From an uncultured Granulosicoccaceae bacterium (GTDB lineage Bacteria > Pseudomonadota > Gammaproteobacteria > Granulosicoccales > Granulosicoccaceae): DNA of 41,743 nucleotides. A program made the translations under genes and the position numbers. The notes under the pieces were generated by a model. That model made no database searches and had not been told where the DNA came from. It was given only the letters and a program-made list of their open reading frames with translations. Below, one piece after another: positions 7-28,418 of this stretch. Position 1 is the first letter of the stretch. Every line of letters begins with the position of its first letter. The stretch spans positions 1 through 41,743 of the forward strand of contig CALFCF010000080.1 of assembly GCA_937951345.1 (NCBI GenBank), written 5' to 3'.

Positions 7-255
7 CTAGCCTGCTCTATTCATGAAGGGTTCGCCACCAGAGTCTGGCTACCTAAGCAGCTCGCTCGATTCAGCGAAATTCGTAGAAATCTACGGATTG
101 AGCTCAATCGAGTGAGCTGCGACGGCAGACGGGCACTGGTGGTGAATAGAAAACAGTGTGCGGACACCCACAGCGACGCTAAAACTGCTTTGCTAACTGG
201 AAATGGCTTAGTTTTCATTGTCACTGTTTTCGCCTTCGTGAATAGAGCAGGCTAG
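7..255 (-). repeat. Miniature inverted-repeat element, copy A (MITE-like)
   Basis: The core at 11-251 (241 bp) starts with CCTGCTCTATTCATGAAGG and ends with its inverse (CCTTCGTGAATAGAGCAGG), with one mismatch between the ends. CTAG borders the core on both sides (7-10 and 252-255). This may be a 4-bp target duplication or simply part of the ends. The reverse complement matches the element at 28170-28418 over its full length, with 13 differences by hand count and no gaps. It contains no transposase. A 67-codon frame inside is shared with the other copy, but most of the differences change the amino acid, so it does not look like a conserved protein. The right half of the element orientation contains nested inverted repeats, one arm of which has decayed in this copy. 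I infer a non-autonomous mobile element moved by a transposase encoded elsewhere. Confidence 0.85.
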
Positions 256-28169: not shown

Positions 28170-28418
28170 CTAGCCTGCTCTATTCACGAAGGCGAAAACA
28201 GTGACAATGAAAATCAAGCCATTTGCAGTTAGAAAAGCAGTTTTAGCGTCGCTGCTGGTATTCGCACACTGTTTTCTATTCGCCACCAGTGCCCGTCTGC
28301 CGTCGCAGCTCACTCGATTGAGCTCAACCCGTAGATTTCTACGAATTTCGCTCAATCGAGCGACCTGCTTAGGTAGCCAGACTCTGGTGGCGAACCCTTC
28401 GTGAATAGAGCAGGCTAG
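28170..28418 (+). repeat. Miniature inverted-repeat element, copy B (MITE-like)
   Basis: The core at 28174-28414 (241 bp) is bounded by perfect 19-bp inverted repeats, CCTGCTCTATTCACGAAGG and its complement, with CTAG on each side (28170-28173, 28415-28418). It is the same length as copy A at 7-255, inverted relative to it, with 13 base differences. The interior is highly structured. TTCGCCACCAG (28279-28289) pairs perfectly with CTGGTGGCGAA (28384-28394). Inside that, 28305-28323 pairs with 28350-28368 over 19 bp with two mismatches, and innermost CGTAGA-TT-TCTACG (28330-28343). GGCGAAAACAGTG near the left end also pairs with 28267-28284 with a bulge. No transposase is present. The 67-codon frame at 28201-28404 is not convincing as a gene. 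Confidence 0.9.

Follow-up and report, generated by a model that had tools for sequence, protein, structure and literature searches.

MITEs are usually seen as decayed insertion sequences with incidental hairpins. Bacterial examples such as the Correia, ERIC and Chunjie elements are short, bounded by terminal inverted repeats (TIRs), free of transposase and able to fold into hairpins; the text of a review on bacterial MITEs (PMC10969869) mentions neither IS1380, CTAG nor covariation. The element described here is likewise short, TIR-bounded, transposase-free and hairpin-folding, but unlike in these three, compensatory change has preserved its predicted structure in many families. QMITE1 and QMITE2 of Coxiella burnetii are also high-copy gammaproteobacterial MITEs, with very stable transcripts and links to the small RNAs (sRNAs) derived from MITEs (PMC5896051). 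The direct repeats reported for them, of 2-4 bp and 7-11 bp, vary in sequence, whereas those of our element are YTAR; by their published description they also have other lengths, and no covariation has been reported for them (PMC5896051).

IS1380 insertion sequences resemble our element in their ends, CCTG...TTCAT, and in their 4-bp YTAR duplication, but they encode a transposase and have an unrelated interior, whereas our element has no transposase. The HEARO or omega RNA of IscB, too, is structured and moves along with a mobile element. That is its likeness to our element, which differs from it in having no Rfam match, no nuclease gene and a DDE-type target duplication.

MITEs, IS1380 elements and MITE-derived sRNAs are already known; the element itself is without a description that we could find in open-licence papers. 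It matches nothing in Rfam 15 at the gathering threshold (a permissive search gave weak plant and animal miRNA matches far below it) and nothing in viral, plasmid and phage collections. We argue, with a probability of roughly three in four, for a non-autonomous DNA transposon (MITE) that an IS1380-family transposase mobilises in trans and whose interior specifies a structured RNA that may aid its spread.

Results

The window is an entire contig (C80) of 41,743 nucleotides from an uncultured Granulosicoccaceae bacterium, whose assembly (G000) comprises 4.49 Mb in 115 contigs and is 95.5% complete. It holds two copies of the element (Table 1). As the original prediction had read from the letters alone, each copy has a 241-bp core with CTAG on either side, and the two differ at 13 positions across 249 bp; the 19-bp ends are perfect in copy 2 and carry one mismatch in copy 1. 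The opposite orientation of the copies had not been mentioned. The window contains four TIR matches, against none in 100 shuffles, and the element folds at -126.4 kcal/mol (z -13.6 against shuffles), far beyond chance. Copy 1 lies at the very start of the contig, with an outer flank of just 6 bp. Because these 6 bp equal the end of contig C110, its outer junction is less secure and may be an assembly overlap. The assembly also breaks within element copies at contig ends C80, C110, C63, C104, C102 and C50, so some contig-end copies may be graph overlaps.

Table 1. Positions of the two element copies and their parts in the window
Feature	Position	Strand	Remarks
Element copy 1 with flanking CTAG	7..255	+	Strand A (conserved-fold strand) is +
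Element copy 2 with flanking CTAG	28170..28418	-	Strand A is -; R1 match C80:28265-28400 minus, E 1.7e-41
CTAG target duplication, copy 2 left	28170..28173	.	Own, sister-genus and class-wide copies show YTAR duplications
CTAG target duplication, copy 2 right	28415..28418	.	YTAR duplications in other copies
CTAG duplication, copy 1 outer side	7..10	.	6 bp from contig end
CTAG duplication, copy 1 inner side	252..255	.	Sequence of copy 1
19-bp TIR CCTGCTCTATTCACGAAGG, copy 2	28174..28192	+	Predicted to form RNA P1; TIR match, folding
19-bp TIR, copy 2 opposite end	28396..28414	-	TIR match
TIR, copy 1	11..29	+	TIR match
TIR, copy 1 opposite end	233..251	-	TIR match
Predicted P2 of copy 2 (strand A hairpin, internal loops conserved)	28278..28395	-	Folding, covariation
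Predicted P2 of copy 1 (strand A hairpin)	30..147	+	Folding, covariance-model matches
Internal reading frame of the original prediction, not a conserved gene	28208..28405	+	Start or frame lost in several copies

A search of the whole genome bears out the MITE reading of the original prediction. It returned 159 first-look candidates and 93 left ends, none of them with more than 3 mismatches; we count at least about 90 copies, about a hundred, in the genome, and relatives are positive too. The element is 241 bp long (a MITE is under 500 bp), has 19-bp ends and a target duplication, and contains no transposase. The copies lie about 3% from their consensus and 5% from each other. They fall into size classes: copies of 238-242 bp, palindromes of 26-39 bp that consist of two element ends only and are collapsed forms, deletions of 120/123 bp, and composites of 385 bp. 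Palindromes of 26-43 bp made of ends alone (L073, L080, L085, L087, L072, L081 and L082; L051 in a same-genus species, G001) are mostly still flanked by YTAR, so collapsed elements occur in two species. Solo 13-bp ends with no second end stand right after the stop codons of neighbouring genes at L089:3734 and L090:4497.

Do the CTAG tetramers belong to the element or to its target? CTAG is palindromic, and its presence on both sides cannot tell duplication from longer ends; the original prediction had left both readings standing. The flanks are identical YTAR tetramers in 51 own, 31 sister-genus and 15 class-wide copies. Since non-palindromic direct pairs (TTAG/TTAG, CTAA/CTAA) occur seven times among own, sister-genus and other-family copies and inverted pairs never, these four bases represent a duplicated YTAR target and not element sequence: specific insertion with duplication stands, and longer ends fall away. 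TTAA/TTAA flanks likewise occur. CTAG is the strongly preferred target, though TTAA is far commoner in the window sequence. When the flanks of the copy near mnmG were joined, the locus was not syntenic and its upstream part could not be aligned in relatives, giving no clean empty site.

Judging from sequence, the mobiliser is probably a transposase of the IS1380 family, the bacterial relatives of eukaryotic piggyBac. The usual target of piggyBac is TTAA (PMC10813416). IS1380-family transposases (PF13701) are present in relatives, where their elements have CCTG...TTCAY ends and duplicate CTAG, CTAA or TTAG (all three in G036); CCTG...TTCAT ends with a 4-bp YTAR duplication are seen at loci L193, L197, L205, L210 and L213. 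At L197, in the sister-genus genome G027, an intact 470-aa transposase (NF033539 IS1380, E 3.4e-109) sits in a 1.7-kb element laid out as CTAG, CCTGATCTATTCATGAG...CTCATGAATAATCCAGG, CTAG. Over 18 bp the right end of this element, CCTGGATTATTCATGAGG, is identical to the MITE consensus of the sister genus, and the same genome carries many MITE copies besides the IS1380 gene. The ends in our own genome, CCTGCTCTATTCA, differ slightly from these. The original prediction had looked to a full-length transposon with the same ends for the donor family; the sister genus supplies such a relative, but the own genome does not, holding just the two solo 13-bp ends, collapsed miniatures and deletion forms. 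Because PF13701 has no match in the own assembly, in G001 or in G003, and is missing from 10 of the 15 class genomes tested, the mobiliser would be known through relatives only. The presence of a transposase in the same genome is no strict requirement, as the enzyme could have been lost or could be missing from the assembly. The interior of the MITE is unrelated to that of IS1380, and an R2 model search of 27 IS1380 loci found none with the RNA of the MITE. Elsewhere (G205, L334:1241-3011), a 1.77-kb element with a distant PF13701 match has perfect 22-bp ends, CCCGCTTTTCTCACAGCACTTC, and a CTAG duplication.

One strand of the element, strand A, folds better than the other, strand B, in 60 of 60 own, 43 of 43 sister-genus and 22 of 22 other-family elements. 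Its predicted fold is a three-way junction: P1, formed by the terminal repeats; P2, a hairpin of about 115 nt; and a variable P3, closed by GAC/GUC in the sister genus. Compensatory change is strong in P2. Among 39 full sister-genus elements, both partners have changed in 18 of 57 pairs, a level reached in none of 500 shuffles, and 97.6% of cells are paired, against 30-47% in slid-structure controls. One pair occurs there as U-A (15), A-U (14), C-G (5) and G-C (4). In other gammaproteobacterial families both partners have changed in 42 of 49 pairs (37 elements, aligned by MAFFT), in a set that is not fully independent, its members having been found with a model that includes structure. In G001 both ends have changed together (CCCGCTTTATTCA) and P2 is altered by paired substitutions. 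The internal loops are conserved in sequence, around GGCUAAGCAG / AUGCGACGCC and GAAGCAUAGC / GCUAUGGUUCAAG, as is the junction, CGAAUAGGCACAAACUG.

Searched with a covariance model, 17 of 48 host-family genomes contained the element, and a class-wide sample of 369 genomes added 17 more, spread over many families (E to 6.6e-23). The class-wide elements share its anatomy and YTAR flanks, and measure about 235-245 bp where ends could be found. By these comparisons the predicted RNA fold has been kept in many gammaproteobacterial families.

In pairs that are mostly Watson-Crick, replacements by G.U outnumber those by A.C, 29:10 in the sister genus (p 0.003) and 33:19 in other families (p 0.07), where the class-wide excess is not significant by itself. 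Because of this imbalance, the data favour strand A being read as a single strand, with RNA as the natural form. Single copies drift freely. Singleton mutations in the own genome occur at 0.38 per site in stems and 0.33 in loops, and 12 give G.U and 14 A.C. Since single-copy mutations neither avoid stems nor prefer G.U, selection acts on spreading lineages, not on loci: the structure is kept in the lineage of multiplying copies and not in each inserted copy.

The internal 67-codon frame does not behave as a protein. Its start is lost in several copies (to CTG, TTG or ATA), and frameshifts or nonsense interrupt it in several. The original prediction, that DNA or RNA is conserved and not protein, was right and understated, given repeated loss of the frame and a predicted RNA fold conserved class-wide. 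Transcription of strand A is a candidate, unproven property, because copy 2 has no promoter-like site or motif and the copies show no sense bias (22 sense and 34 antisense to neighbouring genes). Copy 2 also has no terminator motif. Many copies are located at gene 3' ends. In 16 of 46 analysed insertions an ORF ends exactly at YTAR, whose TAG or TAA is the stop codon; the base rate in the window, one of five non-coding CTAG sites at an ORF stop, is too small for a claim of enrichment. In many insertions the stop codon of the adjoining gene lies inside YTAR, as at own copies L009, L018, L028 and L140, and the protein is left intact. We also considered a resemblance to attC (GTTRRRY/RYYYAAC); on inspection only, the boxes do not pair as in attC.

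Discussion

In the mechanism that we propose, an IS1380-family transposase would act in trans on the MITE, recognising terminal repeats of the CCYG...TTCA type and inserting it at YTAR, with a strong preference for CTAG and duplication of 4 bp. On strand A the ends would pair as P1 and meet the long P2, with its conserved loops, and the variable P3 at the three-way junction. The RNA (or single strand) might then aid spread, whether it acts during transposition or renders new insertions into transcribed DNA tolerable; if so, selection would see source copies only. A fold kept by compensatory change while copies decay points to selection on the RNA for the spread of the element, and makes a DNA transposon's need for an RNA component a question open to experiment.

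Could the fold arise with no RNA function? Long imperfect palindromes get corrected during replication, and DNA-level hairpin correction could account for part of the covariation. An ordinary MITE whose fold is a by-product of such palindrome maintenance (template-switch correction) would also agree with the lack of pairing constraint on individual copies and with the collapsed 26-39 bp palindromes, a hairpin-type deletion. We consider this unlikely, though a serious contender: correction should yield perfect palindromes and act alike on both strands, whereas specific unpaired loop sequences are kept class-wide, G.U exceeds A.C on one strand, and pairs switch type while adjacent mismatches persist. 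A benefit to the host at every insertion site, with the structure acting as a terminator, mRNA stabiliser or sRNA, is rather improbable. The position of many copies at gene 3' ends, with 16 of 46 adjoining an ORF whose stop lies in YTAR, and the sRNAs to which Coxiella MITEs give rise (PMC5896051) would fit such a role. Against it, orientation to genes is unbiased, copy 2 has no terminator or promoter motif, and individual copies are free of constraint.

Two further alternatives concern the mobiliser. IS5 and IS701 members also use YTAR, and some copies harbour a second, nested MITE that has different ends and a YTAR duplication; yet the IS1380 elements of the host family have matching ends and duplication, which makes another YTAR-targeting family an improbable source. 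That a Y1 (RAYT) transposase moves the element as a REP-like palindrome we find very hard to credit. The 37-39 bp palindromes with CTAG and one degraded Y1 gene in the genome bring it to mind, but the 4-bp target duplication and the absence of element ends around Y1 genes, of which there is only one decayed copy, argue against it. That copy (L121, G000:C99) has three stops; G001 has an intact 225-aa frame (L122).

Beyond an IS1380-mobilised MITE with a structured RNA interior lies a wider reading, which we offer tentatively as possible and somewhat doubtful. The elements may make up one lineage of mobile structured RNAs, spread over the class and fitted with borrowed IS1380-type ends, in which the RNA is the conserved, propagating part and is active in its own mobilisation or acceptance. 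If true, they would be the bacterial equivalent of SINE-like parasites, with a DNA transposon as the element exploited.

The 385-bp class seemed a candidate for a longer parent of the element; it is in fact a 241-bp element into which another MITE, 142 bp long, has become nested, one that has different ends (GGGARCCTCTGATTTATTA) and its own YTAR flanks. The insertion point is a TTAG/CTAA site of which the 241-bp copies have just one, so an empty site is available for the 142-bp MITE. This MITE occurs with YTAR duplication at own-genome loci L094, L107, L129, L152, L154 and L159, and is nested at one shared site of several copies in both orientations.
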